Of a stretch of DNA of 64,000 nt, positions 10,490 through 61,700 are shown piece by piece (position 1 is the stretch's first letter; the number at the start of each line of letters is the position of its first letter). A program made the position numbers and the translations under genes. Source of the DNA: Owenia fusiformis (taxonomy: Eukaryota > Annelida > Polychaeta > Sabellida > Oweniidae); NCBI GenBank assembly GCA_903813345.2, contig CAIIXF020000009.1:3968001-4032000 (forward strand), given 5' to 3'. A model generated the notes under the pieces. It saw nothing but the letters and a program-made list of their open reading frames with translations. It did no database searches and had not been told where the DNA came from.

Positions 10490-12328
10490 TTACAACCAAA
10501 TAAGATGTTCATCCTTAACAAGTCTGGGGAGATCACCAAAGAGGAGAGAATATTCGAATGACGTCAACACCTTGGTTGTACCAGACACAGGGTCAAATTC
10601 AAACACCTTCTTATTACATACATTGGGGGCTGTAAAACCTCCAAATGCCAATATTTTGCTGCTTCGCACCAGCAAGGTTGGAGCTGTGAGAACCAGAAAT
10701 ACTATGTCGTGTAAATCAGTCCACTGGCTTGTTTGTGGACTATATTTTGAAATAGTTTTGCCCCAAAAGCAGTAAATTTCCTCATTGCAACACGCTCCAC
10801 GAATACCGTAATATGCAATGTTGTCTGCATCTGCGTTGAGTGAAGAAGTGGGTAACTTCGGCCCCATTGATATTTTGCCTTCTCTGGTGTTATATATTTG
10901 GAGAAATTGGCTATTACTTCCATCCACAGTAAGGCCACCAATTATGTACAGGGACCCTTTCAGAGCAACTGTCAAATGTCCAAACACTGGATGAATCAAA
11001 GTGGTAATAGCTCCTTGGGGTGCTTGCCAGACATCTTTTCTCCAATCATACATGTCAATCTGAGAACTGACAGTGACATTTGCCGCCTCACCTCCAATCA
11101 AATATATGTAATCACCACATAATGTTAAAGTGAATGATTTCAAATACCCAGATCTACTATTTGAAGCTCTACACTTCTTCCAGCCTTTGCTTTTAAAGTT
11201 GCTGTCATCTTGCTTATATGTGTTCCGGTACAGTTCCCCACCTCTTAGGTATTTGTAAATGTTTTGTCCGACCAAACAGACTCTGTCTTGAAGCAAGTAG
11301 CTCCCTAGGGACTGTAAATATGCACAACATGTCATTTCAAAAGTTTGCACTTTGGATAAGGTTTCTCTGATAACGCTGATAGAAATGTCATCACCACCAA
11401 AAATAGTTGAAGCACAAATTGATGTCTCACAGTTCCTTGGTTTGCATCTGTAATAGTGTTCTTCATGCTGGTAACACGGTGTGGTTTGATGACGAAATGC
11501 ACCTATAATATAGTTATTCAGACACGGGAACTGATTGGTCAATGCATGTGTATAGATTTCATCGCTTAAAACTTTGGACTTTATGAAACAAAACCTGACA
11601 CATTCAAAAAGCTCCAAGGCATGCACTTCTCGCTCTTTAGTCTTGGACATCCAGCGATCTACAGCATAGAAAATATTTTCTTCCTCAGTGACAACTAGCC
11701 TGTCATCTCCAAGGTAACTGACAAGACTGTTTTTTCCAAGTTCAAGTAATCCATCCGTTTTCCATACATTGTCAAAATTGAGCAACGCATGTTCATTTGC
11801 TGTTTCAGCTAGCTTAGGTTGCCCTATAAATTCAGCTGTCTGGACTATTTCAAGGCAATTGTCATCTGCTATGTTCAACCTGAGGTAATCAGCCAAAATG
11901 TCCTTCATTCCATTTTCAATCTGGAACATATCAACAGCTTTTAGAGTTTCAAGTGCCTGCTTGGCGCTAAGGTTAGTGGACCTTATACCTATGTCACTGT
12001 TATCCTTGAAGTCATAATAAATGAAACGCAAAATGTGTTCCATTGCAACACTTGAGACGTCTTTCAGCTCAATGGTTTTCTTTGTAGTTTCAGCCATGCC
12101 ATTTGTCAACAATGAATTGAAGTAAGGAGAGTTAGCAGCCAGGATTATCTTATGGCAATTGAATTGTTTCCCTTCAACTTCTAATGTAATATCGGTGAAT
12201 ACATTGTCCCGCCAAAGTTCATTTAGCTGAGTCTTGAAATATATGACATTCATCTGGCCTGCCGTAATGTGTTCAGGGAGACTGTCAGATATAGAATCTA
12301 TGTGTCCTTCACTCCCACTTGACGACAT
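10490..12328 (-). CDS. BTB-BACK-Kelch protein (KLHL family), intronless coding region
   Basis: A complete 612-aa reading frame. KLHL proteins typically act as substrate adaptors for CUL3 ubiquitin ligases. Residues about 36-147 form the BTB/POZ domain, with the hallmark DNVFTDITLEV and CHKIILAANSPYF segments. Residues about 150-255 form BACK, including FYAVDRWMSK. The C-terminal part from about 400 holds divergent Kelch repeats: YIYLIGGE near 408, LYIIGGLT near 460, a degenerate blade near 518 and ILAFGGFT near 559. A stretch rich in Cys (about 280-345) between BACK and Kelch looks unusual. The length matches the family. The start was chosen as the first Met, because a good splice acceptor (TTTTTGTAATTTCAG) ends 11 bases before it, implying a 5' UTR intron. 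The exact paralogue could not be named. Confidence 0.93.
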   Translation of the reverse strand: MSSSGSEGHIDSISDSLPEHITAGQMNVIYFKTQLNELWRDNVFTDITLEVEGKQFNCHKIILAANSPYFNSLLTNGMAETTKKTIELKDVSSVAMEHILRFIYYDFKDNSDIGIRSTNLSAKQALETLKAVDMFQIENGMKDILADYLRLNIADDNCLEIVQTAEFIGQPKLAETANEHALLNFDNVWKTDGLLELGKNSLVSYLGDDRLVVTEEENIFYAVDRWMSKTKEREVHALELFECVRFCFIKSKVLSDEIYTHALTNQFPCLNNYIIGAFRHQTTPCYQHEEHYYRCKPRNCETSICASTIFGGDDISISVIRETLSKVQTFEMTCCAYLQSLGSYLLQDRVCLVGQNIYKYLRGGELYRNTYKQDDSNFKSKGWKKCRASNSRSGYLKSFTLTLCGDYIYLIGGEAANVTVSSQIDMYDWRKDVWQAPQGAITTLIHPVFGHLTVALKGSLYIIGGLTVDGSNSQFLQIYNTREGKISMGPKLPTSSLNADADNIAYYGIRGACCNEEIYCFWGKTISKYSPQTSQWTDLHDIVFLVLTAPTLLVRSSKILAFGGFTAPNVCNKKVFEFDPVSGTTKVLTSFEYSLLFGDLPRLVKDEHLIWL

Positions 12329-12339
12329 TGTAATGATCT

Positions 12340-12354
12340 GAAATTACAAAAACC
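12340..12354 (-). other. Probable 3' splice site of a KLHL 5' UTR intron
   Basis: On the minus strand, TTTTTGTAATTTCAG directly precedes ATCATTACAATG, where the final ATG is the KLHL start. A possible partner donor, GTAAGTTT, lies near 14370-14377 on the minus strand. That would place the nested transposons (12373-14184) within the intron. Confidence 0.5.
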
Positions 12355-13148: not shown

Positions 13149-13899
13149 CCCGGGGGGTTCACTATATATAAACTTTGACGGGGATCCTCGGCGCATGTGG
13201 GGTACCTTTTTCAACGTTTGGTATGGCAATGGACCCATATTTTAGGATTTGGTATGGGAATGCCCGGAAATTTCTGACTTCTGAGGTATGGTAATGGTCG
13301 GACTTTTGCTCTTCTGGTATGAGAATGGTCGTTGTAGATACGTTACCTAACATTCGTGGTATGGCATTGGTCCAGTAGTTGCAAATTTGAAGTTGTTTTG
13401 GAACGATTCCCGAAGTATCTTTAACTGAAATCGAACATTTTATGTGATGTATCGCTATGAGTAAAAGTGTGAGTCGTGTTATTTTGGTCATTCATGACCC
13501 CAACTACATGTACAGTATGGCATTTGTCCTTGATTTGAGGTATGGCGATTGGTCCTGTATTTGCACATTTGTATGACATTGGTCCTATATTTCATTTACT
13601 TTGAATTAAGGTATGGCATTGGTCCCATATTTGGACATTTGGTATGGCATTGGTCCTACATTTTGACATTTGGTATGGCATTGGTCCCATAATTGGACAT
13701 TTGGTATGGCATTGGTCCTATATTTGGACATTTGGTATGGCATTGGTCCTATATTTGGACATTTGGTATGGCCTTTGGGCGTTATTTTGGTTGGTATGGG
13801 AACATATTGAAATTTGACAGATTGGTATGGGAACATATTGATATTTGAGGCTTCAGCCTAGGACCCCCGTCGAGTTTTATATACAGTGAACCCCCCGGG
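13149..13899. mobile_element. Inner copy of the same transposon, nested in the outer copy
   Basis: The same CCCGGGGGGTTCACT ends delimit 751 bp. An 8-bp duplication, GGCATTGG, at 13141-13148 and 13900-13907 comes from the minisatellite unit of the outer copy. The left 230 bp is almost identical to 12373-12600, so the insertion looks recent. It lacks a middle block of the outer copy (about 12630-12950). Confidence 0.88.
13610..13790. repeat. 31-bp minisatellite in inner copy
   Basis: About five tandem units of 31 bp with core GGTATGGCATTGGTCC then TATTTGGACATTT. The unit belongs to the transposon interior. The peptide repeats it would encode on the minus strand are artefacts of the array. Confidence 0.85.
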
Positions 13900-14058
13900 G
13901 GCATTGGTCCCATATTTGGACATTTGGTATGGCATTGGTCCTACATTTTGACATTTGGTATGGCATTGGTCCCATAATTGGGTATTTGGTATGGCATTGG
14001 TCCTATATTTGGACATTTGGTATGGCATTGGTCCTATATTTGGACATTTGGTATGGCC
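13900..14058. repeat. 31-bp minisatellite in outer copy
   Basis: About five units of the same 31-bp repeat. This array was split from its left part by the inner insertion at 13149-13899. Confidence 0.85.
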
Positions 14059-14192
14059 TTTGGGCATTATTTTGGTTGGTATGGGAACATATTAAAATTT
14101 GACAGATTGGTATGGGAACATATTGATATTTTAGGCTTCAGCCTAGGACCCCCGTCGAGTTTTATATACAGTGAACCCCCCGGGATAATACT

Positions 14193-21355: not shown

Positions 21356-24300
21356 CTAATAGGGCGTAAACCGTTGGTACGCTCCTCGATACACGGCAGC
21401 CTGAAATATCAAGAAACCAACATTATTCATTATAATCTTGAAAATTCATAAAATGTGACACATAAATGACTATTACACTTGTTGGCAAATTTCTGAAGGT
21501 TGTTTTAAAGCTGGGTCAATGTTTGAAAGATTATCAACAAAATTAGAATTTGTTAAATCTTATATAAACAATGTTAATTGACATAAAATATAGTTATTAT
21601 CAAATGGATGAATTTATTGGGTTATACTTTCTAGTTCTAGCTTGAAATCTCCTAATAAGATAAGAAAATCTTGCTCTCCGAAAGTCTAAATCCAAAACTT
21701 TATCGAACAAAAATGAATTAAAATAAAAAATATTGTCGTAACACAAAAAGTGAATCAAGAAAGAATTAATATAAAACATTAACTCAATGTGTTATAATGT
21801 AACTGATCCAAAACAATAGGAACAATAAATAATAATTCTTATATTCTGAAAATTTATCTCTATACCTTCTAGAATTTATGAGTAATACGTCTAGTCTGAA
21901 AGTGATATAAGAAAATGAAATTCCAATATTGATCAAATGGCACGGTAATAATCATAAGGGAAGTCTGACTCAAAACCGTTTTTATTTGAGTAAAATTTGA
22001 GCATCATGAATGATTTGATAAGTGTGGATTGTTAAATTGATGTCTACTTCAAATATGAACGATTAATAGGACTGACAAAAATACGAGTGAATCTTCATTA
22101 AATGTCTCTTACCAATATTCCCTGACAATTTTCAATAGAATTTTGGTAAAGGAATTACAAGAACTCACAAGCTTGCAAAATGTCCAAGTTAATGAAACTT
22201 CTTGAACACAGTTGTTCCAACTGACACATATTCATATTGCTTTATGGAAGCACATCTAAAGAATATAGAAAAATATAATATAATGACCTTTACCCCATAA
22301 CCAGCTACAGGGCCTATACTGTGTCCTATGTAGGGATCTGAAGTGTATGCTGCAGTGACTGGATCACGGCCATACGCACTGTAATAAAAATATGAATACG
22401 CGTGTGAATATAGTTCCCTTGATTAAGTAGTGTGGCACCATATATACAACTGTTGGAGAAAACATGATGTGATTTTCAAAATGGCGGTGGATCGTAATGA
22501 CGTATTATCTTCAAGGACGATCAGGAAATTCATGCCATGCAGACATTGCACAAGATGTAACAACACGTCATTCGATCCACCGTGACATGTTGCGATGATC
22601 AGCAACTTGGCTTTCAAGATTGAAGGACAGTTATATATATAGAGCGACACCTTTTGTTGAACTACAGTACTTCATGCCATGGCTGCACAACATTCGGGCT
22701 TTGGGGGTGGTGGGAGGGGGTAAATGAGATCGGCGGGATTAATAGGGGTGAAGCATTATGAACTAAATTACTGAAAATACAAGCATTCTCCAACTAAGCA
22801 TACAAGTGATAAATTACGTGGTGCAAATTCATGCAACGTTTGTTTTAATTCCCATGCGTTTACCACATTCATTAATAATTTGAAAATACGATGCGACTTA
22901 GCTCACAGATAAGGCATTCATCTAAACTAGTGTACAGCATTCTCAATTGACTCAAATTAATCATTTTAACACAATAAACATTCATTTTTATTAATCAATT
23001 AAAGAGTGCTTTGATTCTTGCACATGCAATCAATACGTGTTATAATCTCCTCAATTCTTCATATTAAATTGATATTAATTTACTATAGATGGAAGAGAAT
23101 CGAAGGGCTGTTAAGGTTATAAAGGTCATAGGTGATACAGTAACCCCAGCTTATATGAACAAATGTAGGTCTCACAAAATGAGTTAGTAGAAATGAAACA
23201 CATGACAAAAATAAACAGGAAAACATAGTGTTAGTGTACTATAGAAGAAAAAGTATCCTGATAAAAATTGACCAAGAAAGGATAAAGATTGAAGACGAAA
23301 TGATAAACAGAAAAGATACCAACAAAACACCACCTGCAATGTTACTTCAACAGGTGGCGCTAGTAGTGGTAAGGTGATAATATTAAAGATGGATTTGGAA
23401 CAAAATGAACGTATATAGGAAATAAACGGGGCCAAAACTATAACACGGTAGTGTGCAATGCCGCAAAAACCAACACAACTCTGTTGATCTGGGGGTGTCA
23501 GTACCTTTGTAACCCAACAGCCATTCTGGACGTGTCAGTTTGATTTTTCACATACCCTGCAGTTGCTGCGGCCGCGTAAGTGGCAGCATTAGCCACCGTG
23601 GGAATAGCTGCGTAACGGGTGGCCGTAGCATATCCGGCGGCATAAGGCTAAAGGGAAAGAGATTAAACCACATGTAAACGGAATGTTACTAAACCACAGC
23701 CAACATAAAGTGCTAGGTCCAACGGTCACCTACGCCGTGTATTGCATGCTAGCAATGACCGTGGAATGATGTATACCCTCTAACCCTTGGTATGTTAGTG
23801 CAAGCGGATTAGAAGCCCTGGAGCTGACTGACTGATTCAGCCATAAGTCCTAAAAAAGGTTCTATCAAATGAAAAAAAGGTGCATATCCACAGCATATAC
23901 GGTCGAGACATCAAGATTCCGGGATGATGCTGTAATACACAACACAAAGTCATTCACAATACATCAGTACAGTATAAAATGGCAACATGCTTGGCATATG
24001 GAAAATCATACGGCAAATGGTATACATGTATTATCATATGGCAAATGATGCAAAATGGGTAAATATTCTTTATGAGTAAATGTCGATGGCACAACTCCCC
24101 ATGGAAATTGTTGGATTTATCAATATGCATGATCTTAATCTAGGGATTATCTACTAATCCAACAGTTGATTATCCCTTATCCACTCCATTTGCATGTGTC
24201 AACAAAAATCTGATCAATCAACAGAATTTAAATCATACATGTTTGATAATTCCTCCATTTAAAAAAATGAAAAATTACCAGTGCCAAAGTGTCATTCACA

Positions 24301-27300
24301 TTTATGGGTCATGATATCGTCAATAAAAAAGCAGGACTGACTAAGCATCAAGAGATCCAGAGCCAATTAGTTTCAAACTTGTATCGGAAATAACATAACT
24401 GGCTCTGTGTAATTTTGACCAGAAGATGTGACGTCCCAGTAACGCACCCTGAATTGAAGCCATAATGGTATCCCAGCATTCTATGATTACCCATGATTAG
24501 TATGTTTCAAAAGTACTGTCCAAGCGAAGCATGTTGCCATAGTAACAGTAAATATGGGGTTTAATTCCATTCAATTGATCCATCTCTATATGTAAAAAGC
24601 CATTCTGATTGTGGTTAAATAAGGCATAAAGAGACTAAGGACACAATAGCTTTATATCACATCTATTTCAACTGATTACAAATTAATCTATGAATAAATA
24701 ATTAAATAAGGGGCTTCAAAAATCTCAATTATACGCAAAATTGGTTTTATTCTGGTATGCAAATACTCTTATTAATCAAGTATGAATTTAGTAAATATAA
24801 AGTACTGTAATCCATAATATTTGTGTTATACCAGTAAAGAACTAGTTGAACACACACAAAGTACTAAATAACAATTTTCAAAGGAATGAAGTACCAAATA
24901 ATTATCAATTCAGTACCAAACAAGTGGGATTAAGTACCAAATAAGGGGAAATTCAGTTCAAATTATTGATGTGAATTGAAAGCTATTGTGCCTCAATTAA
25001 ACCTGTCCACACTTAGAAACGACTACATCAACATTGGCCGCCAATTCTCCCATGCCTTGAGAAGAAAACTCATTCAAAAACATTATTATTAGACATCCAT
25101 ATCACTATTATACACAGTTACAACATCAAATATGAAAAAATAGCTGCGAATTTGCCAATTCTAATACGAAAAATGCTTATGTATGCTACAAGGTATGTTT
25201 TTTGTTTACTTGTAAGATGTATGCAATTTACCATAGACCAATGCAGAGATGGCTGAGACAATAATTTACAACTTCTCTTCTGGAGACAATAAAGCTGGAC
25301 ACAATAAGTAGTTTTAATAATAACACTTTACATGTGTAATATTGTAGATTTCAAAATTTGAGATAAAGCAAGCAGTAATATTAAGAATCAAAAATATTCT
25401 TGCATTACTATTTTTTCATTGATTCTGGATAACATATTTGTTGATGAAATACCATTTTGTGTTTTTTAGAAGTTTGAAATTTTTGTCTCTGCCATCAATA
25501 TAAATACATATGAGAAATCTGGAACATAAGAACTGCAAACTTAAAGTGCCTACAGGGTAAGGGGGTAGGAATCTAATGAGTTAAATATGCAATTCTCATA
25601 TCATTTGGCAGCAAAAATTAAGAAATTAAAGTCAAACCATTCTGAATTTTGCAGTGATAAATGCACCGAGGGGGCACAAAGGGCAAGATATCCCAAATGC
25701 ACATTTTCCATCAAAAATCCCAAAAATGTTTAGGCGACATTCCAGGGTTAAAAAGATTCGTACAAGATCACAAAATCCCACGATTCATTTTAATAACACC
25801 CCAGTTAAGTTATTTTATAAAGCAAAATCACAAGAACATTGCATGAAATCGTTTTCTCAAAAAATACACCCCACTCATGTTTCACCTTCCCAGTCACCAA
25901 TATTAAAAAAGTTTAAATAAAAAATGGATTAAAATCAAGCCAGTCAAATATTATCAATTCTAATAACATGTGTTACCCCATTAATATTCTAAGATTCACT
26001 TTAAGCGATATTCGCATCATCAATGATTTATTTTTCGGAATAGTTCGAGATGATCGAACAGACATCAAAGTACATCTTAGCTTCTTAGGGTCAATATTTG
26101 AAAACATCTGACCCCAAGAATCAACAGAATCCAGAATCGTCTCGACGAGAAAAATATTATTTCTCACGAAATTTCATAACTTCTCAACAAAACTAAACAC
26201 TGAATTTATATATTTTTTACAACTCTGGAAAACGTAAAATTCAATCTTGGATTCTGTTGCATTATGGGAGCTAGCTAGGTTAAGACCTTTCTTTATACGC
26301 AATCCGTCACTCATCAAATCCTTGTTCTGCCTGTGACAATTCATTAAAACCAAAAAGCCCAATTCAATGGAACATACTGGCTATTAAGATTCAAAGTGGA
26401 AAATCTAGAGAGCAATAATAGCCCATTAGAGTCGAACTTGCAAAACTAATCATCAGGATTATTCATGAAATGCATGAGATTGGAAACTGAAGTGTACCTC
26501 AAAAAAGCAATAATCCATGAGTATATTGTCAGTTGTGTGTAATACAGTAAAACCCGTTGAAGTTAAACCTCTTGGTTTCAATAAAGTGTTCCACTTTGGG
26601 AGGTGTTCCACTTATAGAGGTTCAAGTTCAATTAGGGCAACAGGGATAATAACTTAATAAAACATATTTCACTTCTTCTTCTTAAAATAGAGAGCTAACT
26701 TTCAGTTATAAATCCATTTCTCCCATACCAACCCATTTCGTATTTTAGTGACGATTTGATGCAGTGACGAAAAACTAAAGTAAGGTGTGTGTGAGTGAGA
26801 AGTATGTTTACCAGGGTGGGTGTAGTCACTTGCATTTGGTAACGGTCAGCATACGCTGCTAAAAATGGATCTGTGCCCGGATACACACCACCAGTTCTGG
26901 AAAAACAAGCATATTGATAAAATACATTTAACAACATCCAGGTGATTCAATGGATACATGAGTGAATACAAAATATTAATCAAAAATGAAAATAAATCGC
27001 ATATACAGAACTTGCCCAATTAAACCTAAAATTGTGAAATTAAGGCTTAAAATGAATTTATCAAAACTGGGTAGGATTCTGAATATATTGCATTGCAAAA
27101 ATAGCAAAGAAGAATGTTTGATACTGGTGGTTGGTAAGTTAATGATGGCATGTACTGTATAGTGCAATTGCATACATTATAAACTCTACATAGCAGTACA
27201 GACCAGCTACTACCCTTAACTCCCTTATCACTAGCTATAGAATAAAATAAGACCTTTTGGTCATTTTGGAATGTATAACAAATACATTTTGATAATATAA

Positions 27301-30300
27301 AGCTTTCTGATGGTCTATCCCCTTTCTTAAATGCAGATCTGAGGAAACAATCTTTCGCTATATTTTCTAAAGGATCTTATAGATAATGGTCGAGATGAAT
27401 TTGGGGTTTCTTGCTCAAATCAAATCAAAATGCATGGACTGTACTTTCATTCTCATTATTTACTATTTTTACTATCATTTAAGGGACACTGTTCAAGAAT
27501 TATGAAACCTGTGTGTTATTAGACTAGATTACAATTTGACATGTAATTTTCAATAAGATCTTGAGTAAAATATTGGTGGGGGGACTGGGTAGCTGATGTT
27601 TATTCAAGATTACATGATAATGCAATGTCTCAATTGTCTTAACTGTATGATATGGGACTGAGTGGCAACTGGCCTGTATGATGACATAACAATCGTTCAA
27701 CCCACAGGACATTAACCCATGCATGAAGCAATGACCAAAGACACAGAAGAACAACTAAAAACAGAGAATATAGTTTCATAGCAAATTGAGGTGGAGAATG
27801 CAAACAAGTCCATTATTGAAGGTCAAAGTGGAATAATATTGATATTTGAACAAAATGAAATATTATGAAGTAACAGAATAGTATGACATTAACTTGAATT
27901 TTTGGGCAGTAAAGTGAAATTATAAATTCCAAGCAATAGCAAAATATTCATTCATCCAATTGACTATTTTTGTTCACTGGGATATTGGTTGCATGTTCAG
28001 CTGAACTTATTCAATTTGGGTCTATAAAATACTTGTGGGAATACTTTGCAATGATTTATCATATATTAAGGTCTTTATTGAACCAAGTAAAATGACATTG
28101 GGACCTGAGAATATGGATGGTATGCTTCAGTCTACACATTTGCAGTAAATCTACCACTTCTAATAAAATAATTTACTGCTCCGTTGGTTTTAAAACAGAG
28201 AAAATTGCTTTACAAGGAAGTGGGAAAACTCTTTCATTGACTGATAAATATGTTGTTAAATTGTAAATTGATATGATTTGTGATATGTTAGGTTTAGCAA
28301 TATATGTATTCCATTCACCCAAGATTATATTCAAGAAACATAAAAGTTTGTCACTGCCAAAAACCTTTAACATAAAACCAACTGAAAATTTGTTTCATAT
28401 TTCAGAAGGTGTCAATAAAAATGATAATGGCATCTGGAATATTGTATAAGACTTATAAAATAAGACTGTATAAAATATGCTGATATATATCATAATATGT
28501 TGATGTATATTATAATATCTTGGTATGTATCATAATATGTTGGTATATATTACTGGTTAAAGGCAATGCAAACCATTCATGCATACCATACTAATAACCA
28601 AACAATTCAGATCTAAAATAGACCAAGACTTGGAACCTTTTTAGAATTTTGTATTCACTATACAAGGATGAAGCACATATCATGCATATAGGATATGCAG
28701 CAACTATGGATGTATAATGTAATAATCATAGCATGCAGTGTTCCAATCCTAACACCCCTACATTTAAATGCAACATAAAGGGGTGATAGGTCAGAAATTC
28801 AATTTGCAACTAGATAATGGCAACTCCGCGGAGTAGCAAATCCCAACGAACAAAATATCAATTACCGAATTCCAATCAATTATACTCATTACTTTGGTTA
28901 AAATTCAGATTTAAGAATTGCGAATTCCTGCAAAGCAGCCATTTCGAATTTTCTGAGGTACAAATCTGAAAAATAATACCATAATTGTGATCTACTCCAA
29001 AATTCCTTCAATTTGAGTATTATAAAGCCATACGCTGAAGGGATCGAAAAAATTATTGCGAAATCATACATTAGACGGCCATTTTGAATTTTACGAGGCT
29101 CGAATCAGAAAAAAGATACAATATTTGGAATCTACTCTCAATTGCCTTTCATTTGAGTATAATAAAGCTATACTTCAGAAAGATCTAAAAATTATATTTT
29201 TTTCTGTTTTCCTGACCCCCCATACACGGCCCCTGGGGGTCAGGATGAAAAACACGGAATATATGTGAAATAGATAGATGTTGCGAATATACTACCAAAA
29301 TTTCAAACAATAATATTAATTACCGTACTTTGGTTTAGAATGAAAGATTTATGATTTTTGCGAAAAGGTCCCGTCATTTTTAAAGTGGTGGCCATCTTGA
29401 AAAAATCCATTTTGAATTTTCTGAGGTACAAATCTGAAAAATAATACCATAATTGTTATCTACTCCAAAATTCCTTCAATTTGAGTATTATATAGCCATA
29501 CTTTGAAGGGATCGAAAAATGATTGCGAAATCATACATTAGACGGCCATTTTGAATTTTACAAGGCTCGAATGAGAAAAAAGATACAATATTTGCAATCT
29601 ACTCTTAATTGCCTTTCATTTGAGTATAATAAAGCTATACTTCAGAAAGATCTAAAAATTAGCGAAAATTTCTGTTTTCCTGACCCCGATACACGGCCCC
29701 TGGGAGTCAGGATGAAAAACACAGAATATATGTGAAATAGATAGATGTTGCGAATAAACTACCAAAATTTCAAACAATAATATTAATTACTTTGGTTTAG
29801 AATGAAAAATTTATGATTTTTGCGAAAAAGTCCCGTCATTTTTAAAGGGGCGGCCATCTTGAAAAAACTATTCACCAATACACATCTTTCCGCTAAATAT
29901 GAAGAAAACCCGTCTACTAGTATTTGAGTTATCTTCCGGACGGACAGACGGACGGACGGACTGACGGACGGACTGACGGACGAAGGGCTTCACTATATCC
30001 CTACCAAACTTCGTTCGTTGGGATAATTAATTGTATCATACTGTATTGTCTACACACCACAGAAACCCCATAGCCAATTTGTAAAAAAATATTAGAGAAA
30101 AAAAGGTTTCGTTAAGGCTCGGAACATGTGTTTTTGACAAATATGTCAAGAAGGAACCCTTTACTAAAAATGGAAAATTACAAACTTAAGACGAAAACGG
30201 ATATGAAAAAACTTGTAAATTTGCTAAAATGACAGATGAATTGAATAAAGTCATACAGATATTTACACTGTTTAAATTAGATTGGGTGACACAAATTGAC

Positions 30301-33300
30301 CAAATAATAAATATGAAGATGGCAAACCAATGAAACTCAGCAAACATTAATAATGCTACACTTGGTAGTATCATAGATGATAACATAATGCGAAATGGTT
30401 TGACAAAAGCAAATATTCATGAAAATGGCAAAATATTTGCTCTTTATATGAAAAAAATGTTATTGGCCAAGGGGTCTTTGGTGTACGTGTTTGGGCCATA
30501 CCTGTACTGTTGTATCAGTGCATCTGGAAGACCACTGAGACCCATCCTAATATGGAAATAAAGCAAATTCACCATCAAACCCAAATCAAAATGCAAACGT
30601 GTGTGCGCATATTTCTCTCAAATTTTCATGCTGTAAATTGCATCAATATCCAGGTCTCAAAATGAGTAAGACAGTTTTTAGAGAAGCTCAAGCCCTTAAT
30701 TATTCCAACCCTAATATCTGGTAATAGAGAAAAACTATAATCAATTCTTGGAAATACAAAACCAGAAGATGTCACAAAATTAATAAAGAAAAGTAATCCC
30801 AGTCTCATTTCATGGAAAAATCCCTATTCTAAAATGATATTTATTGTTTCGAATTTTGTTATTTTTCAATTTGAGAGAAATATGTATTCTGGATAGGAGT
30901 GAAGCAAAAATTGTGATTAATATAATTTTTATTAACATCAAAACGTGTCTACTTAGTAATACAATGTAGAGGCATGCAAGCTCTCTCTGTGCATGCAAAT
31001 CTTTAATAATTAGAAAATAATTGAAATTTATTCCATGTGTAATTTCTTTTACAAAATATAACTGTCATCATTTTTATAGCAAGTTGAATGCACATAGATA
31101 CCTTGCAAAGTTAACTAATGAATATTTACTAAATTCAATATTAGGCAGAAAATGAAGAAAATTCCACGCCTTTTCAGAAAAATCTTTCAAAAAACATGTT
31201 TTCCCAGCATTCAAACTGATAGCCATGTGACATAATTCAACCAATAAGACTCAAAAGATTTCACAACTTTATGCTGTTATATTGAGTAGTGGAATTTTCC
31301 TTCATCAGTATGGATATCACCAACACCATATATAAGTTGCTCATTTGTTGACATACATGCTAGATACAGATAACCAAAACCAAACATTATCAATAATTAA
31401 AATTTGTGAGAAAAAGCAACTAATAAAGATTCACAAATACATCAAATAGAAATATGGACACATGTTCATACTAGCTTTTAGATACACATTATTCAAAAAG
31501 TAATGGAATGTACATAAAACACCTCAAGGGTAGAATTATATCACAACTGATCAATATATTTTCTATATATAAACCTTTGACATAAGGATCTAATATAACT
31601 AGTATAAATGTGTCCATGACATGCCTTATTTACGCAGTGCAATTATTCAGAAGTTCATTAACCCTTTCCCGACGTGAATATAAGAGGAAAATGTTGGCCC
31701 TGGTGACGGATAAGTAAGAGCAGTTTTTAGGGGAAAACTGAAAATTACCTATGCCCAGGGACCTATACCTTGAATTTTATCACTGAAATACATTTTTTAT
31801 AAAGGACTATCGTATTAGAACAACTTGTCAAAATTTGGTGTAAAAATACTGAATAGAACTGGAGATATTATCATTTCATTGATGTATATAAATAAAAATT
31901 ATGGTGCCAAAAGGAGCCTATAGTCCTGAAAGGTATTACATAATTGGGCTCCATATGGAGCCCATCGTCGTGAAAGGGTTAAGGGAGGCAACATCTTTAA
32001 GAACATCACACCATATCAAAATGATCATGTTTATAATGAAAAATTCATCTTTTAATTGATTATTTTATATATTTCTAAACATGACCATTGTGACATGATA
32101 TCAATAAAATACAAAAAATCTTGGATAGTATACAAAGAAAAATAAAGGTGGCGCTTTTAAGCAAGGTCACCTAACTTACGTGGCATATGGCAAGCCTGTG
32201 GCTGTGGCAAGAGTTGGCCGTATCTGAGCTGCAGGAGTGGCTAACATAGCAGCACCTCGTGCTCTCCCTCTGGTCAATGCTACCCCTCTTAAAGCTGCTG
32301 CTAAAAACGTAAGAATGAAAATATGATTTTTTTTAATGTTTTATAACATTATTCATCTCATACTTGAACATGCTTGAGGTAGATGTATAGAGCAGTTTAG
32401 CAAAGAAGTGTATAGTCAACAACAATCAGAGGACCAATAGAATAGTAAGTGAAATAATCCTAATGTTCCAAACCTCATATTGGGTAAGTTAATTAACTAA
32501 ATGAATAGATATTTTTGGTTTAAATAAACAGTAATGAAAAATTAATTTTAGCTGCGCTTTTTGAGCATTAATGCATGACAAATAAGCAAACTAATGGTCT
32601 TCATGTCTCACTCAAATTAATCAGTGGGGGAAAAATTCAGAAAAAGCTTGTGTCTAATTATTATTTACTTACATTGTAAGTAGTCTCCATTTGGTATGAC
32701 CCCAACACCAACCCCAACCTGGGGGGATGGCACAACTGCTTTCTTGGTCATAACCCTAGCTGTGGCATTATTAACCTACAATATATCATCACATTAGTAC
32801 ACAATGATCAATCCCTAATCAAGGAACTATAGCATTGTGGGAAAACCATATCATGAAAATATGTATGAAAGCCTTTTGAAATTGTCCTTTCTTAACATTC
32901 ACTTTCACAGTTGCATAAATCGATAAGAATTGATATCAAAAGGGACTTTATAATGGTATCTTCTATTTCAAAGGGAAACAAAAAAGGTGTTATTTGAATA
33001 GAATTTCTCTGTTTGCAATGAGGTACTCCGACTTGAATAATAGGAGATTAGAAAAGAAGAAGTCCTCATTATGGTTTTCATTCTATTATTGCTAAGGGCT
33101 TATTCTGGATAATATATTTGTTTTAAGGCTATTATTACCCACAATGCTTTAGTTTCCTAATTAGGATATATTAGATGGCATCGCCAGTATTTCCTGTAAA
33201 AGAAGATGAGATTATAATTTGTACCTTGCTAAGTAGTTCTAAACCAAGTGATTTTTAAAATGCATTGTGTTTAAGTCATTCGTTCTTAGTTATCTTAATA

Positions 33301-36300: not shown

Positions 36301-39300
36301 AAACATTGTTTTTTACCTTATATCCTCTCTCTGACAATTCTATAGCTATTCAATAACAATGATACACAGATGAGGAAATGCCATGTTGATTAGAGTAAAG
36401 AGACAAAAAAAGTGGAAAATATGCACTCACAAATATATAACAAAAGAGGCTCTAGCATTGCTGATGCACTTTCACCCATTGTATTATTGTGTGATTGTTA
36501 AAGGTGGAGCAGTCATTGAGATTAATTAAGGGGCTCTAATAATGCGCCTATCGTTCACATCAGGACAATATCCAATCAAAATGCAGATAATATTAAAGTA
36601 CGGACAAATAATGAGGAAAACATGAACTGAAGACACCCCGAGTGTCATATGACATCAAACATCATTTGACATCAGACGTCAAATGACATCAGAGTTGTTC
36701 TATATAGTAACAATGCACGGGCACACTGACACATTCCGACAAGGTCACAAGGCATTTCTTCATACTGCGACGTAATTATAAATGATAACTTAGCGGTTAT
36801 GTGTTGTGCTATACCACAGAGTATGTAATAAATAAATAACCATGCACCTCGATCTTTCTCCCCTCAACCACAGTTCCGTTCAGTTTTTCACGTGCTCTCT
36901 CGGCTTCAGCGCTATTTTGGAAAGTTACAAAACCGAATCCCTACATGCATGAGGAAAATAATAAGGGGCATGCATTTAAAATCGTGCAAATCAACGAAAT
37001 CACAGCATTTGTTGTTGTTCATTTATTATGATGTTTACGAGTACAATAGACAAGTAACTGATCATGCGTGGAAGATTTGATCGCTATATATTCATTTGTA
37101 TTGCAAGTGAAGAAGTTTGAATGATAGATAGGTCATGCAAGAGTTCTTCTAGAAGCAATTGTTGTGTCCATGTATTGACAAAGCCTATAATTGATTGATC
37201 TAAGTTAACAGAGGCATGAGTTAACACTGATACAAGTCAACTTTTGTGCAATATACAACATTGGCACAGTCAACATTGATACGGGTTAACATTAGCTCTA
37301 GTCAAGATTGATATGAATCAACATTGGCATAAGTCAACACTGGCGCAGGTCAACATTATGCATTACAGCAGAGACACACAGACAAAGACAGTTGCCAGAC
37401 AGACAGATAGACAGATGGACAGACAACACACATACACAGCTCTACGATCGGCCAGCAGGGCTGAATGGAACACGTATACAGTGCTTGTTAATCGGTGTAA
37501 AGATAGACAGAGGGAGGGGAAATGAGACTGTGGCGGATATGTGAAAGCTCCTTGCATAGGATTCAAAGCTACCCATCCAAAATATGTTCATTCTGGTCAA
37601 GCCTTTTTCATACTTTTTCACACCAAAACATGAAAGTATTTAATTTTCACATTACTGATTGAGTTTGCGGCCTACGCCTGTACTATTACTCTCCTTACTA
37701 TTCCTTATGAAGCTAATGTGTTAAAGGATAGGCTGACCAGAGTGAGGCACACGGTATATGATAACATACATTAGAAACTTAATCACCTTACGGAACAATC
37801 AAAATGGCGGCCAGAGGAGGTCAACATTCAAAATGGCGGCCAGAGGAGGTCAACATTCAAAATGGCGGCCAGAGGAGGTCACACAAAGAAACAACCCCTA
37901 CTAAAATAATACAGTAAATAAATAGTCAACAGTTTTGGACCACCCTTCCAAGATCTAAAATAAACTGGCCCAAGAAAGAAGCCCTTAGGGTTCTTTATAA
38001 GAGTTTGCTATATTCAAAGCTTCCACCAAAAGAGGATTGTAGAGCGAAAGGAGGCAGAAAGTAGTAATAGGGCAATTAAAGGAACATGGAAACCTAAATG
38101 CCCAACATGTTAAATAAATGGAATGAAATGTAGATAGTGTAGGGGAGAGGGGAGCTCCTTGTTTTACACCAGATCTTGTTAATAAAGTTAGTTGGTCATA
38201 GAAAGATGTGTTAGCATAGGTTAGGAGCATATGTGTGCGTAATTCCTGAACTTGGATGATGACAAACATCGCTGTTGCAGTATGTATATTAATAGAGCAC
38301 ATATATGGTAACATATTGATCCAAACTAATCATAAACAGAAATTGCAGCACACATAATACAAGAGAGAAAGTATACGAGCTTTTGGACATAATTCATAAA
38401 TAGAAACAGTCTAAACTAAAAAATGCTCCACGGATGACTTGAGTTCACATAATGCAGCAGACTTTGAAAAATCGTAGAAATAATTGCAGAGCACTGTGAT
38501 GTGTGACTACATAAGCGATGTATAAGAAACAAAGAATGCCGAAATCGTAAAATTTGCTTGCCATTTTAATTTAGACTGCCCTGAACAACTTGACGAGCCG
38601 TGAGTTTCGTGTTTGACACTTCATATGTAACAATGTACAATACATTATAAGCTGAGGGCCCACACAAAGTTGTAATACTGACACTATTTTAGTCAACTAC
38701 TAGATTAGAAATCTGGACATTCTAAACCACAGTGTGTGTTCACTTAAACTTAATTATATCATTCTTTAAACTAACATTATCATTAAACTAGTCTAAGAAA
38801 TTACAAAATATTTTGTTCTACTAATATATTTAAACTAATGAAAATTAGGAAATATAACATGGATTTAATTATTATATATTTTATTCATTTTCTTTATTTT
38901 CTTATTAATATGGTGACGATAATTCAGAAATGGACATACCTTGGATCCCCTTTCGTTGAATATAATTTCAACATCCAATATAGTTCCAAACTGCTGCAAA
39001 AGAATAAAAGATTTATTTAACTACTTATTTAGTCGACAACAATCACTAAGATACGAAATATGAAAATATTTTCCTGTATATATATACGATAGAAACCTAG
39101 TAAAGTAGAGAGCTAAACTTGGGACTTATAAATAAGTAGTCATCACATTTCTTAATTCATTTTTCATTTTTTATGTATACTGTACTCCCAAAAGATGTAT
39201 GCCTGAACATTGACTGAAAAACCTCTTGTTTTAAGGATAAGGGCAATATCACCAATATAAAGATTCTCTAATAAAACTTGAAGACTTTCAGGTAAAATAT

Positions 39301-42300
39301 AACTGGAACCTCCTGAACAATACAGAAACAGTATTTTCATGAATCATTGGTATAAATAAACTGACATAATTCACTTACTCCTAATAATTGCCTTAGATCT
39401 GCCTCTCTGAACCTAAATGGAATATTTGATACATGTAGTCTCTTTGGGCCTGGGGTCTCTGGTTTGGCTGGCATCTGTACATTTGGATTGATTGTGACCC
39501 CTGGGGGCATCTGGACTTCACCACCCTCCAGTTCTGTTTGCTGTAAAACAAAGAAGTAACATTTAATTTTGTTTTAGCTAATAGTGTTTCTTTGATATAC
39601 AGGATATAAAAAGAAAAGAAGTTCACTCTCTTCTTCCCAATAAACATCTGCAAGAAAATTGAATCGTTTTTAGATCATGCAATGTGGCAGACTTGTAAAG
39701 ACTCTGCACTCCAAGTTTAAACATGTAAAACATGAAATTGAAGAAATATCCAAAACAGCCTTGTGCTAAATACACATTGCTCCAACTCTGGCTAGGCTAT
39801 TCTCCACTTCTTTTTTACTTTATCTATTAGCCTTTGATTCAGAGGTGGTTCATTGATCTCACCTATTTCATCATATCAGACTACATTGTCAGAATATCAC
39901 AACACAACATTTTCTACGAATAAATAGCTTACATTAATTTCAGAATCAACTCAATAGAACTAAAACTAAAATCATCTCAATAATCAGAGGGTTTGGCAGC
40001 TGTCTAATTCCAGGGTAGTTCAGTCCAATGATGGAAAGAACGGTTTCATTACATCTAAGACCATCATTAATCACATCTGAAAGCTATACCTCATTTCTGC
40101 AATATGAACTAATCAAAAACGCAATGCTTTTAATGTAAATTAATGGGAGGTTTATACAGATCTTGATCCCAGGGATGCATTATGCTCTTTATACTAATAT
40201 TTTGAGCTGATGCCTGAAATGATGTATAATATATTTTCATATCTTTATATAATAACAGACTTCCAGTTTTCTAGGATTCGATTGCTAATCTTTAAAAGAA
40301 AGCTTTATCTTTTAACAAGAGTTGATTCTTTTCTTTGGACCAAAATGTGATTTCTGTATCTTCATCTACCAGGCCTTGACAGCTACTCAATCAGGTCATC
40401 AAAACATTAAAATTAGCTACATTAATCAGAGGGTAAAAATTACCTTTAGCCTCTGAGCTTAAGGGTTTCTAATATATAACCTCCATCAAGTCCTTAATGT
40501 ATCTAATATTGTCACATGCACCCAAGAGGAGCTCGAAATATGAGCAATTTGTCTCATTTTAGGTCCCAGGGTTGCAATATATTAGTCTAACTTTAGAATT
40601 AATATTCAAGCATTAAGAATTAGGAGGTAGAAAATCTCCATTTTCCAGAATTGAAAGGCTTTCTATGAAGATGCAAATGTTTTTTCAGATGGCTGACATT
40701 TCTAGCTTTTTGTAGCTTTTGGTTGCTAATACTTTTATTAGCTACTGTATAACTTCTTCCAAATAGAATCAAATTTCTCTCTAGGGCTTTTATTCCTCTC
40801 TCTGTTACAAATTCTCATTATTGATTTTTTTTCAAAACTGGTCAAACCAATTTTTCTTGATTTTTACCATTTTCAAATGGGTGCAAGGGTTTCCAGTTTG
40901 GAGCCTATTTTCAAAAGCTCAAGTAAGTGTCAAGCCTACTTGCCTCAATATTGGAGAGATCACCAAAAAAGTGTAAAGCATGGCAGAGTAGAACCACTTG
41001 GAAACTCATTTATGCCATAGTGCATAAAAGGGCTATACCAGAAAACTCAATCTACTTGACCTACCAATAAACTTGATTATATATATCTGTATTTGCCCCA
41101 AACCATGGAAAGATGTGATATCCCTACCACTGAAGCAAGTAGGTGCTTTCCTTGAGATCTTTAAAGACTTGAAAATCCTGGAGAATTTGATTATTTTTGA
41201 ACCCACAGAAAAACCCTGATTCAGGAACTGAGGTAATACATAAAATACCGAGTGAACAATCTATTGAATGCTATAACCTGTAGCAACAGGGTTGTCAGAA
41301 CAAAGTAAAAACCTGTTCGGCTACTCTATTCTGCTCCAAAAATCAACTATCAATGATGTTTTATGGTCCAGGAACTAACGATATCTTGAAACATTACACA
41401 GATATCAGCTACTGAGACCCCACACATAAAATAAATCATGAATACACATTTGACCATAAGTACCACAAATAATTATCAATACATAACTATCATTAAGTAT
41501 CAGTCACAATAGTTAAATAAACTTACTACTACGGTAGACTGTAAATCTAGTAAAACTAGTAAATCTAGTAAATCTAGTAAAATCTTGTAAAATCTTGTAA
41601 AAACTTGATTATTCAATGTCTAAGATATAAAGTGCAAATGTCGAAAAAGCACTGAAAATGCCTTTGTATGAATGAAATGAACATGTAGAAAAAATTCTAC
41701 CTTTTATTTCATTATATTTAGTTACAAAACAACTATATGTTAGTACTGGATAACAAAATGGTTATCAAATGGTACACCCATTTTATCATCATACACAACC
41801 CACCCAAGAAGCATGCTCTATTAACAAATTAAGTTACATATTTAAGGACTGAGGGGACAATGCGTACCATCTAAATCTATAAAAGATCTAATCAGCCAAT
41901 CACGCTTTGAGGGGCATAACTTGAAAATGTATAAATTCATTGATATTCTATACACAGGTAAAGCGAGCTTTTCTACAGGTATGTGAAGTCCCAGACCAGG
42001 GTAGAATACACAGAGCCTTTGTGCTTCCTATAAAAATAGCTAAAACAGTTCCCCCGATAAACAAAAAGCCATTAGTAGGCTGATAGGAAAGATCGTTGCC
42101 ATGGTAACAACTAAGAGATGATGGTAGACTACCTGTATTCTTTTAGCATGATCTTTAATCCAGTGTCAAGAGGATTCAATATCCATTCAACACCCAAATG
42201 TTAGTTTTTAGATTTTTCAAACTAACCTTCTAAATAAATAAAGAAATGGTTACCACAACAACTGATTTGATACTTATTTCTTTCCTCATTTTCAAATTTT

Positions 42301-54300: not shown

Positions 54301-55712
54301 AATCCTATGCATCACCAACTTAAATAATATTTGATTTAATATTTTCTCATACAGTAAAACGTGTATGCTGGAACACCTCCCTTACAAAACACTGAAGTCC
54401 AGTTTCCCACTGATTTGCTGGAATTACACCATGCGTTTTAGAAAGGCGCCTAAGGTTTTAACCCAGTTTAAAAAATAGGTGTAATCAGGATGGTGATTTT
54501 GTAAAGCACTTTCCACTAAAGAGCGTTTAGTGTTTTTTCTGGAGTAATTCCATCAATTAATGTAAAATGACCTCTATGAGTTAAACACTAAAGTAGAATA
54601 CAAAGAAATATTGAATAAATATTTTGAGGTACCAAATGTGTCCCACACTAACAGGTACTACTGTAATTATTCAAATGTTAGAATGTTGATTCAGTTAACT
54701 TCTCATAGATGGAAGTCTCAAATAACCTATTAACAATTATGACTTAAGGATATGAACTGATATCGTCAGATATTAATATAACAATGACATGGTTGATGTT
54801 ATGCAACACATGCTCCTCACAATTTTAAGATTTATTGGATACATGTATAATAAAACAGTAGCAAGTCTGATCTCTAACCGATCATGCAAGAAAACATGCA
54901 GGGTTTAAAATATACATTGACCAATCACCTCACAATATGCATTCGCTGGTTTGAAGCTAGAAAAATTCTACGATGAAATTAATTAAATAAACCCTATGAA
55001 CTGCAGTTCATCTTTCATATCAAAAGGCAACATAATTTCTTCCATTGATTCAAAATTATAGTTCCCTTTCCTATACAATTGCTGGAGAAGAGACATGAAA
55101 AAATAGGAAGTTTGATGCAAGGTTGATTTCTTCCATTCTTCAACTTTGATTAAACACAAGAGAGTGCTATGCTACGATGTTCCTGCTTGCCTTTTAACTC
55201 ACTCGGTCAGTTTGTCATGTTGGTACCAACCTTTACATTCTTCGATGGTTTGAACACCACTATAGCCAGAGCGGTCGACCTTTAAGCGCTACCTGCTGTA
55301 CGCACTACTCTGCCCTTGTTGGTAAAGGAATGGTGAACAAACCCTCGGTGAATGTATTAGCAATTGTCAAATAAGTCATTGGTTAATGTTGTCTCTCTCT
55401 TTAATAAGGTTATACATTGAGAGATATGTTGCCCTTTGTTATATACAGATGAACATGGTCTAAAAGTAAGGCACGATATACTCATACGCCTACAACATTC
55501 TTGCATAACCGCGCTATGATCACATTTGCCATATTCATTGAAAAGACGACAGAAAAGGTGTACTAACACTTACTGTTTGCTGCTCCACTGCAGCTCCTCC
55601 ATTGGGCACTGGCTGTAGCTGGGGACTATATGTAGGCGGATGATCTGGCTTGAGTGGGGGTTGTTGTGAGGGATCTGTAGTTACGACTGTAGGGGCACCG
55701 GGATTCTGTTGT

Positions 55713-55744
<32 letters not shown>

Positions 55745-58700
55745 TTGTTGTTGTACTGCTTGTTGAACCTGCTGTTGTTGATATTCTTCTAAGGTTGCCG
55801 GAGGGGCTGTCTGTGCAAACTGTGGGTAGGTGGGAGCCATTTGATTCTGAACCATGTGCTGAAAATACAGAGAATTCAAACATTAAATAATGTAATTAGC
55901 ACAGATTTTTGACGAACCACACTTGTGTTAGTAAAGATGACATATGATAGTTCAAAATTTAATCAAATAGTATTGACTTCACTTGACAAGTTATTTTTTA
56001 TATTTACAGCATCAGAACATATGAATTTGATCCCTGAAATATCCTTTGATCACATAAAATGAAGAACTGAATTCATTACTGAGACTATTTCATTTTCTTT
56101 CTACCTACTCTACTGTGCCGCACAAGCAGACAAAGACAATGCACTCCACAAGTACTTTAAGTACATACTGTACTAGACTCCTTTGCTGAACTAGACTGTA
56201 TTTCTTTTTTAAACATGAGTACATAGCAGAATTGTCTGCATCAATAATTCTTGAATATTCACCAAATATGAATAACTATCATACACAGTTTGAATAATAA
56301 CATATAAATCTGATCTGAATTCAAAACAGAGCTATTCTATGCTATTCTGTGTACCTGTAATATAACATAGTTATTCTGGTCAGGCCCAATTAGGTTCATC
56401 TCAAATAACTGTCAATGTGAATTCCAGATATTTCGAATCAAGTAATATCTAACTATTTAACAAATCACGATTGAGAGACAGTGCTAATCCCAAAAGTCTC
56501 CTGCTAGAATTTTAATCCATGAATTAACGAGCCTTTCTCACTCTTATACACTCCTTGTTCATTATTCTATGATAAAATGCACAACTATGAATGTATATTA
56601 TATACGTCTATGTTCTGATACATTTGTTTGTGACACCACATGCCAAACTAAACTATAACCGAAATATAATTATTTTTTCAATATAGCCTCGATGCATTAA
56701 ATCTATCTATCAGAGCCTAGTTTATAATGGCCTAATTATAGCAATTTTCTCCAGAATTGCTATAACTTAACATGCCATGGCCTAATAACGTGTATATTAT
56801 TGATAGTGAAGATATAGTATGATTTTTAATACAAAAGTGAAACCCTAACACAGCTGGTACCAGTTTTCAATGTGTATGATTATTGAATAGCAAATCTGCT
56901 CTCCTCAAGTACAAATCCATATGTATATAGATGAACCAATAACAAGAATCAGAGACACATTTGTACTTTAACATGGTTCAGGTTGAAGTACTGCCTATAT
57001 AATCCCCCTCATTTTCCAATCTATATAGAGAAATAGAGAGAGAGGAGGTATATAAAGACTTGAATAATCAAGATGAAATATACCATGAAAGCCAGTAATA
57101 TAGACAAACCTATTTAGAATCAAACTAATGAAAAATATACATGAACTATTGATGAGGAACCCAACTATATCAATTGCTGAATCATCAAGTTACAAATAGT
57201 ATATCCGTTTCCTTTTCAATAAAGGCTCTGATATATCAGGTTGTATTACTACTACAGGTTGTGAAGGCATAATATACTCTTCCATATAATATTCTTAACA
57301 ATGTGATTTTCTGGCAATAGAAGCAAATCATGAATCATAAAAAATGAGTAAATTATGCATGAAGTACAATAAAGAATATACGTTATAGTTCAATATATAA
57401 CCTGTATGGTTGCATCTGCCAGTTCCATTTTTCCAGATCGGCTTTGTACCATCAGCATTAGAATTCTTTTATGTAAATCTCAATGAGCTATAAGCTAACC
57501 CAACTGCTGGTATATAGTATTATATATTATATCTTGTGATTTTTCTAATATGTTCCCTGAAGTTAATCTCTAAAAAATTCTTAAATTCAAAATTCTTCAA
57601 ATCAAATTTTCACTAAGACGACTAAATATTTCGTGTATCATCTATTTTTGCAATTTTTTGTAACTGTTGTATAATTTCTCCATTTCTTTCCATTAGCCAC
57701 TGTACATTAGCCACTGTCTAATTTACATTGAAATGATGTTACTCTCTGAAAATCTCTAATGAAAATGAACACTGAGTTATTCTATGTGTCTCTTATCAAA
57801 ACATCTCTCCTATATTTCCTCCCTAAACAGATGTCCTGCCATTTATAATCCCATGCTAAAAACGTCCCGTATATAACTGCCAATTGCAGGATCTCCTACG
57901 AAATCAGATATTAAGTATCTATTTTGCCTATTTTTTGTGTTTCTCCATGTGTAAAAACTGAATTCTTCAGTGATTCAACTTTTATGTCTGCATTTTCCTG
58001 AAACAACGTGTGACAGCCTTGCTTTAGTAAAGAATGTCTCAATAAGTGGGTGATATACATTCATTGAGAGAGAAGTGAATAATGCACCATTACTTGCTAC
58101 ATGAAATTATGTAGGCACCCTAAGGACCATTCCCTCAAGACTAACAGCCCCATCTCCATACTAATCAAGGCATATGTTATTGTGAACAATACAGCCCCTA
58201 CAAAATTCACCAATCAATCAAGACTATATTACAGATCAAGGATTTCATGTTTTCCAATTTTCTCAAAAATCTGATTTCTTATCAGGGTACATTTTATGCA
58301 TTGTGGTATGATAATTTTATACATTTATTTAAGAAAAATGCATGAATTTATAATAGGGTATATCTAATGAGATTTCATATTGCAAATATTTAAGCTATTT
58401 TATAATTCCATAGAGAATGTCATAATAGAATAAACATATGCAAATATGTAATGGATGGAAGAAAATTTAGTATTAATCTCATTTTCAGGCTTCATCAAAT
58501 AGAAACAAAAATATGAACTTTGTAAAGTAAATAATAAATGATGTTTTCATATCCATTTAATATATCGCTAATGGACTGCAATAGATGATAAGGATTAGAA
58601 TATATTTAAATTCATTGTTGATTAGAAAACAACTTAGCACCCAGACATAATGTTTTCATATGTATTTCCTGATTGGTAGCTTGATTGCACTTTACTGAGA

Positions 58701-61700
58701 CAATGCCGGAGTTCAATCAATTGACCAGGAACTCTGATAGACCCCTACTTCCTTGAAAGCATTGTTTGTTTGTTTGTTTAATTACTAATTGATCTTCTAG
58801 AGACATTGAGTTGTAAAATATTTGGATTACATATTTTCATTTCGTCATCAAAGGAACCCTGAGTATCAGATCATAGAATATTACACAGATGAAGCTCTCT
58901 TTTAAGAAACAAAATCAAACTATTGAAAGGGTAATAAATCCATCAATATAGATCTATAAGTCAATGAGAGAAAATCTACTTGATAAACAAATCCAGACTC
59001 TCAATATAATCTGTAATTCCTTCAAGGATTTATCCAAAAAGACAATAGAGTGCATCTGGTCTACATAAACCATGTAGTTCCTCAACATGTTAATCAGCAG
59101 GGATTAATTAAAGCTCATGCTGTGTGGCACTCATTAATATAATGTTTTCATTTCAGTGAACAGGCCATCTGGACTTTCCAGACAACTCCTCAATATGAAA
59201 CAGCAATATTGAAGTGTTTTTGAATTATAATTTGAGGACATTGTTGCTCTACAATAATACCCCCCCCCATTCACCCAACATACTGATTGACTTCATATTT
59301 CTAAACAACAGATTTGTCCATGTATCCAGATTTACTTGGATCTCTGAATATAGTATACAACCCAGGGTATACAAGATCATTTCATAAATTCTGCAATTCC
59401 ATAATTTTTGTGGGATATTGCAGCTATTTCATCAATTAAAACCATGTGTCTTACAATCGAGACAATCTACTATTGTTATATTAGAAACGAGGTGAGACTT
59501 AATCAGTCTACTGTTAACCTAGCTAGTCAAAATATATCAAATAGAACAATGCATAAAGCTATAAAATAAACCAAACTAGGGTTAAAACGAAACCACAGAA
59601 TACAATATGTCATTTATTCCTCGTATACATTAAGTTTTATGAATGAACTAAACAGAGAGATAAACCTAACAGAGAGATGGACCAAAGTTTAAATGCAATG
59701 TCAGAAAATGCCTTAGAGCAAATGTACTCAGAGTCCAAAAGGTAAAATAGATATAATCAACAGTTTATTTATGTCACCAAATTTCCATATTGGCAAGTAT
59801 CTTATGACCTCCTCAGCCCTTGAGGCTAGTTGTATATGAAATTCCTTTTTAAGACATTAAATCAAATTGAATAGGATGTGATTCTCAGAGTTGTATGCTG
59901 ACTACCTATTTATTATATTTTGGATTTAAAGAATTTACTAATACAGAGGTTGGTCGTTTTTCTTGAGTAAGATCAGAAGACACAGAAGGCAATACACTTT
60001 TCATTAGCTTGATTTCCGTTCTTTGAAAGAGAGCTTCATCTCTGGAGGTACCAGCTTTTGGGGTAGCAATAGAGAAATCCATTAATAGGAGCATATCATG
60101 GATAACATAAGGGAATAATCAAGAGGGCTAACTTTATAAGTAGATGGAAAAGGATGTCTAAAATGAGAAACATTTCAAACTGTCACAAATATTCAAGCTG
60201 ACATTGATGTCTTTCAGTGATGACATCTAACATCAACAAAAGATGTAAACATTTGAGTTTTAACAAAACATATCAATTGCAGAAATAGTTAATAAAGCTC
60301 ATTTAAATATCACCTTGGGGCAATATTACAATATTAGTTTGGATGATGAATTTAGATACCATATGAACATGTTTCATTATTATTAACCCTAATACATGTA
60401 CAGACATCATGTTGATGGTTAGTATAACAGGATGCTGTTTTTGAAGAAACAAGGTCAACATGGAGAATATATCAATAGGGTATCCCACTGTGTTTTCCCT
60501 GCATAATGCACTGGCTGGCTCAGTATTAACAAAAGTACATGTAATAATGGTCACACATGGTGACAGATGTGAAACCACTCAAAGCAAAACCTATCCATAC
60601 AAAACCATCATTTCTGGTTTTAACACATATTCCGTGCCATTCCTCTGCTATTATCATAAAAACTTGATCACTAATGAAATATATTAATAATATAGAGTAC
60701 TAACAGTGCGCCTGTTGGATCGGTTTCATTTTCCTTCTACTACATTTACTATTTTAAACATTAGCTATGTGATATTTAATTTATGAGCAAGATGCTCTCA
60801 ACCATTTAATATCCTTTTTATGTTTAACTGGATGCTTAACATAAACACTAACCAATATTACTGTATAAACCCTACATATATTCTTTCTATCTTTTCCATA
60901 TAGTCTGTGTAACCCTGTATAGGGAATAACAACCAGAACAACGGCAACGCCAAAGCGTAGCGAATCCCATCGAACAGAAATGGCTGGCATTTTTACAAAC
61001 GAAGCGCAAATATCATAAAACAACACACCAGAAAGGCCACCGTTTTCAAAATGGTTACTCACTAGTCAAGTTGTCATCAGAAGAAATAATATGCTTTTAA
61101 GTAGCCACCTCTAAAATTTTTTGAAAAATCGCACACATACTTGTAAAATAACACACGTAAAAATGGTGGCCATTTTTCAAAATGGCCGACTACTCCCCAA
61201 AGTTTTATTAGACAATGTGCCATGCTTAAAGTATTCACATATCAAATATGAACAAAATCGCTCCACTACTTTTCGAGTTATAGTAAAATACGTTAAAATG
61301 GCGGCCATTTTTCAAAATGGCCACTTTCTACTAAAAGCGTCATTAGAAATAGACGGTGTTCCATGCTTATAGTATTCACATACCAAATATGAACAAAATC
61401 GCTCCACTTCTTTTCGAGTATTAGTAAAATACGTTAAAATGGCGGCCATTTTTCAAAATTGTTTTCAAAATGGCCGCCTTCTATCAAAAGTGTCATAGGA
61501 CAGTGTGCCATGCTTATAGTATTCACGTACCAAATATGAACAAAATCGCTCCACTACTTTTCGAGTTATAGTAAAATACATTAAAATGGCAGCCATTTTT
61601 CAAAATTGTTTTCAAAATGGCCGCCTTCTACCAAAAGTGTCATAGGACAGTGTGCCATGCTTATAGTATTCATATACCAAATATGAACAAAATCGCTCCA

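Follow-up and report, generated by a model that had tools for sequence, protein, structure and literature searches.

The window analysed here, a 64-kb stretch of Owenia fusiformis DNA from contig C9, carries an RBFOX gene on its minus strand. Eight coding exons were found, and others may have been missed:

55574-55858, minus strand: probable N-terminal coding exon, 285 nt, poly-Q, from an open reading frame and splice signals, assigned by position and phase
39379-39540, minus strand: exon with the start of the RRM (QTELEGG...), 162 nt, from strong similarity
38940-38993, minus strand: 54-nt RRM exon, 18 amino acids, from strong similarity
36848-36940, minus strand: 93-nt RRM exon, phase 0-0, from its translation and junctions
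32673-32775, minus strand: VNNATARV exon, from similarity; joins the 93-nt exon or, upon skipping, the 54-nt exon in frame
26812-26896, minus strand: probable C-terminal coding exon, 28 amino acids, from an open reading frame and splice signals
22294-22378, minus strand: probable C-terminal coding exon, 28 amino acids, from splice signals and a weak tblastn match (E 2.3) to RBFOX1
21356-21400, minus strand: last coding exon, 14 amino acids and the stop, from a tblastn match (E 0.005) to the RBFOX1 C-terminus

Placement of the first exon and of the C-terminal exons thus relies on reading frames and splice signals, with similarity that is weak or lacking, and the N-terminal exon has no Pfam match. 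The RRM, by contrast with these, is highly conserved: its best match is the RBFOX1 RRM (E 1e-45), and 74 of 84 residues are identical to human RBFOX1. Searching the assembly (498 Mb in 525 contigs) with the DNA returned a single match, the RBFOX locus itself, and the protein search gave nine, the top three at this locus and the remaining six only 32-48% identical. Neither search found a second high-identity RBFOX gene or a haplotype copy. A look for COX1 in this assembly also came up empty. With one high-identity locus in both, RBFOX is therefore probably single-copy in this genome; assembly gaps could hide another.

The 93-nt exon (36940-36848) encodes 31 amino acids (GFGFVTF...VEGRKIE), RNP1 among them, and supplies the latter half of the only RRM in the protein. 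Its best PDB sequence matches are the RRMs of RBFOX1 and RBFOX2; the identification of the gene and of its 93-nt RRM exon in the first-pass annotation is borne out. The exon is symmetric, starting and ending between codons, and its removal would preserve the reading frame by joining NERGSK to VNNATARV. In a model protein built without it, only positions 2-37 of the 70 in RRM_1 are left, scoring 23.9 bits versus 68.1 with the exon. Judged from sequence, its length, phase and homology match those of the known regulated RBFOX exon.

Several other features lie in the same window. Short tandem repeats occur on both sides of the 93-nt exon, at 36644-36693 and 37256-37357, starting within about 320 nt and built of 17-nt and 16/32-nt units; larger tandem arrays are found at 13539-14184, 61155-61869 and 62155-62242, with units of 31/285 nt, 147 nt and CGGA. 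Downstream of RBFOX, an uninterrupted frame of 617 amino acids with BTB, BACK and Kelch domains runs through 10490-12343 on the minus strand. At the start of the 54-nt exon is a tandem acceptor, TTTTGCAGCAG (38991-38996, minus strand), which could add or omit one glutamine; a 3-nt acceptor pair with the same plus-or-minus-one-glutamine effect is described for mouse Rbfox3 exon 6 in PMC3126832.

UGCAUG at the splice sites of the 93-nt exon

The RBFOX gene has UGCAUG, the predicted binding site of its own product, at or overlapping both splice sites of the 93-nt exon. The sites around it are as follows, with a slash marking the exon boundary:

36841-36846, minus strand: TGCATG across the 5' splice site, at +2 to +7 (GAG/GTGCATGG)
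36891-36895, minus strand: GCACG within the 93-nt exon
36944-36949, minus strand: TGCATG at -9 to -4, three bases (TAG) ahead of the exon (CATGCATGTAG/GG)
36951-36968, minus strand: pyrimidine tract CCCCTTATTATTTTCCTC, between both upstream TGCATG
36969-36974, minus strand: TGCATG at -34 to -29, on the 5' side of the pyrimidine tract
36983-36987, minus strand: GCACG, a secondary FOX motif upstream of the TGCATG cluster
37134-37139, minus strand: fourth TGCATG, 194 nt upstream of the 93-nt exon

Through the exon start, the context of the acceptor-side motif reads TGCATGTAG/GG. The first-pass annotation had correctly noticed the TGCATG that overlaps the 5' splice site on the transcript strand (36846-36841) and the one farther upstream (36974-36969). 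It had also recognized the motif near the acceptor (36949-36944), but with a gap of four bases where there are three, and its statement that this motif takes the place of a pyrimidine tract proved wrong, the tract being present at 36968-36951. Elsewhere in the gene, three sense TGCATG fall within 160 nt (28578-28737, minus strand) in the intron separating the VNNATARV exon from the C-terminal exon that follows.

The best explanation for the arrangement at the 93-nt exon, with a probability of roughly 80%, is an RBFOX autoregulation loop in which negative feedback operates through skipping of the RRM exon. When abundant, RBFOX would bind UGCAUG at three places around its own exon: in the donor, beside the acceptor and directly 5' of the pyrimidine tract. 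In the donor it would compete with U1 by covering the U1-pairing bases; at the other two places it would sit on either side of the tract and compete with U2AF and with branch-site recognition. The exon would then be skipped, the more so the more RBFOX is present, and the in-frame product, deprived of RNP1 and of most of the RRM's C-terminal half, would keep both ends of the protein, be unable to bind RNA and perhaps act as a dominant negative. Feedback by direct masking had been put forward in the first-pass annotation; the motif placement on which it drew is right and skipping feedback is our preferred reading, and we infer the remainder, namely RBFOX binding, masking of both sites by the protein, skipping and dominant-negative action at this exon. 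More tentatively, the UGCAUG in the donor and those bracketing the tract might form a minimal double-mask switch, one protein blocking U1, U2AF and the branch region, and possibly the ancestral bilaterian form in an animal with a single RBFOX gene; we regard this narrower version as doubtful.

The motifs could instead oppose one another, the upstream pair repressing and the donor site either activating or recruiting RBFOX without blocking U1, with inclusion set by the balance. According to PMC5577181, upstream RBFOX binding favours skipping and downstream binding typically promotes inclusion, and the donor motif could therefore in principle act the other way. However, at +2 to +7 this motif consists of the very bases that pair with U1, which would make simultaneous binding hard to picture, and we consider an opposing arrangement unlikely.

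Chance placement, splice-site strength and folding

The 93-nt exon might also be an unremarkable, constitutively spliced one, in a stretch with a slight excess of TGCATG. The hexamer is modestly over-represented in the window, with 58 occurrences versus 45.9 expected, a count reached in 5 of 100 shuffles. Three copies on one strand within 134 nt were seen in 10 of the 400 Markov surrogates; these are themselves poorer in the motif (on average 23.5 per strand versus 32 observed), and clustering alone is therefore only mildly unusual and weak evidence. The positions relative to splice signals are far more restrictive. On the minus strand, only 4 of 3,522 GT dinucleotides begin a GTGCATG, and only 11 of 3,221 AG dinucleotides have TGCATG in the preceding 14 bases, the donor and acceptor of the 93-nt exon included. 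Both placements coincide in just one of 48,335 AG..GT pairs spaced 30-300 nt apart, and that pair is the 93-nt exon. When every hexamer was asked for at least two occurrences in -40 to -1 and at least one in -3 to +12 of the donor, TGCATG was the sole one of 4,096 to pass at this exon, and at the six other internal exons none of the 4,096 passed; the placement is unique among the eight coding exons found. Given the single AG..GT pair and the hexamer result, chance is unlikely. Moreover, this exact placement at both splice sites falls on precisely that exon for which theory would predict it, an exon with the length, phase and homology of the known regulated one, so that we give a chance origin very little credence. 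The non-random placement is established here, together with the gene, the exon, its phase and the motif positions.

The rest of the genome gives a similar picture for RRM exons, and a different one for the bare motif string. Among 40 other RRM-match regions, drawn from 121 RRM matches (contigs C1-C12, 31.9-62.2 Mb), sense TGCATG was absent from 27, single in 12 and present three times in one. None of the 40 had acceptor-like and donor-like TGCATG together (GTGCATG lay somewhere downstream in two, and an acceptor-like motif occurred in three). Across the genome, TGCATG-NAG-(80 to 106)-GTGCATG had 238 matches, versus three for the reversed control pattern, and genome-wide uniqueness of the string was rejected. 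Most of the matches listed (C1-C4) fall in tandem arrays and repeats; the string therefore needs its exon context and alone is no proof of function. Two of these arrays are regular: at C2:27147370-27152550 the listed matches recur every ~115 nt, with gaps, and at C4:30640660-30646838 they are spaced at multiples of 81 nt.

The one compared region with three motifs, L023 (G000:C10:27090126-27090796, minus strand), is an hnRNP A/B-type RRM exon whose apparent donor is followed within about 125 nt by three sense TGCATG. By PDB sequence comparison it is closest to yeast nuclear polyadenylated RNA-binding protein 4 and hnRNP A1, with DAZ-associated protein 1 lower, which makes this exon, in a different gene for an RNA-binding protein, a candidate for activation by RBFOX.

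Splice-site strength was scored with a consensus matrix. On this scale the donor of the 93-nt exon scores 6.4, versus 6.2-9.1 for the gene's other donors, and the acceptor 2.4, the second lowest of eight (the others range from -5.5 to 6.6). A crippled donor was accordingly rejected, the score being no weaker than those of neighbouring donors on the same matrix. With such a donor and an acceptor that is second lowest of eight, repression is likelier than an inherently poor exon. RNA structure acting with no protein, the upstream motif and pyrimidine tract pairing with the exon end and donor and hiding both splice sites, is highly improbable: TGCATG is partly self-complementary, and minimum-energy folds do join both the upstream-intron GCAUG and the tract to the donor and the end of the exon, but these folds are no stabler than shuffled sequences (z 0.58 and -0.34; 143 and 76 of 200 shuffles at least equal).

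RBFOX feedback in Owenia and in other animals

The motif arrangement at the Owenia exon is very likely functional, and ordinary for the RBFOX family. Damianov and Black 2010 reportedly describe Fox elements that overlap the splice sites of the Fox-1 and Fox-2 exons and that flank the Drosophila one; such wording was absent among the literature matches listed. If the description is right, the contrast drawn in the first-pass annotation, with upstream motifs in mammals and splice-site motifs here, fails.

UGCAUG is the binding word of the RBFOX family in vertebrates and flies (PMC8742874). Rbfox3 represses Rbfox2 exon 6, whose inclusion in 293T cells drops from 92% to 39-48% (PMC3126832). With reference to Damianov and Black 2010, PMC3126832 calls the skipped product dominant negative, and it notes that the Rbfox1 and Rbfox3 genes of mammals and the Drosophila homolog have an equivalent exon that is alternatively spliced. 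A rat Rbfox2 -93 isoform is reported in PMC5577181, and a stable, dominant-negative skipped RBFOX protein is described in mammals in PMC3126832, PMC5577181 and PMC11380049.

An equivalent alternatively spliced exon is already reported in Drosophila (PMC3126832), and a feedback older than the vertebrates is therefore no new suggestion. Both the loop and such an age are already known, in part on the strength of what Damianov and Black 2010 reportedly describe, and Owenia adds an example. Among the literature matches listed, in the portions available, Drosophila is the only invertebrate mentioned with the RBFOX RRM exon. A scan of viral contigs for the orthologous exon with its flanks gave no relative, and one of genome contigs gave no animal relative, returning two RRM loci that are 40% (L002) and 33% (L003) identical and are both titled as prokaryotic MAGs; these two were left out of the comparison. 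The Owenia locus contributes an invertebrate whose RBFOX gene is probably single, whereas the loop has mostly been studied in mammals, which have three cross-regulating paralogues. If the gene is indeed single, it would be a clean setting for self-regulation, with a compact arrangement directly testable in a minigene.

Set against known systems, the Owenia exon is closest to the autoregulation of mammalian RBFOX1/2/3: the family is the same, as is the in-frame exon of 93 nt (31 amino acids), RBFOX sites lie at the exon, and an isoform unable to bind RNA would be expected. Unlike the mammalian genes, Owenia RBFOX is probably alone in its genome and would regulate itself without paralogue cross-talk, and the bracketing of the pyrimidine tract by two upstream motifs is set down as a further difference. 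Drosophila Rbfox1 (A2bp1) is alike in the equivalent alternatively spliced exon reported for it (PMC3126832). The C. elegans system of FOX-1 and xol-1 is more distant. According to PMC7787662, FOX-1 uses GCACG as well as GCAUG, and clusters of these give a dose response; the combination of GCAUG and GCACG in a cluster, with dose-dependent splicing repression, resembles the Owenia arrangement, whereas the target is another gene, the outcome is intron retention or an alternative acceptor, and there is no self-regulation.
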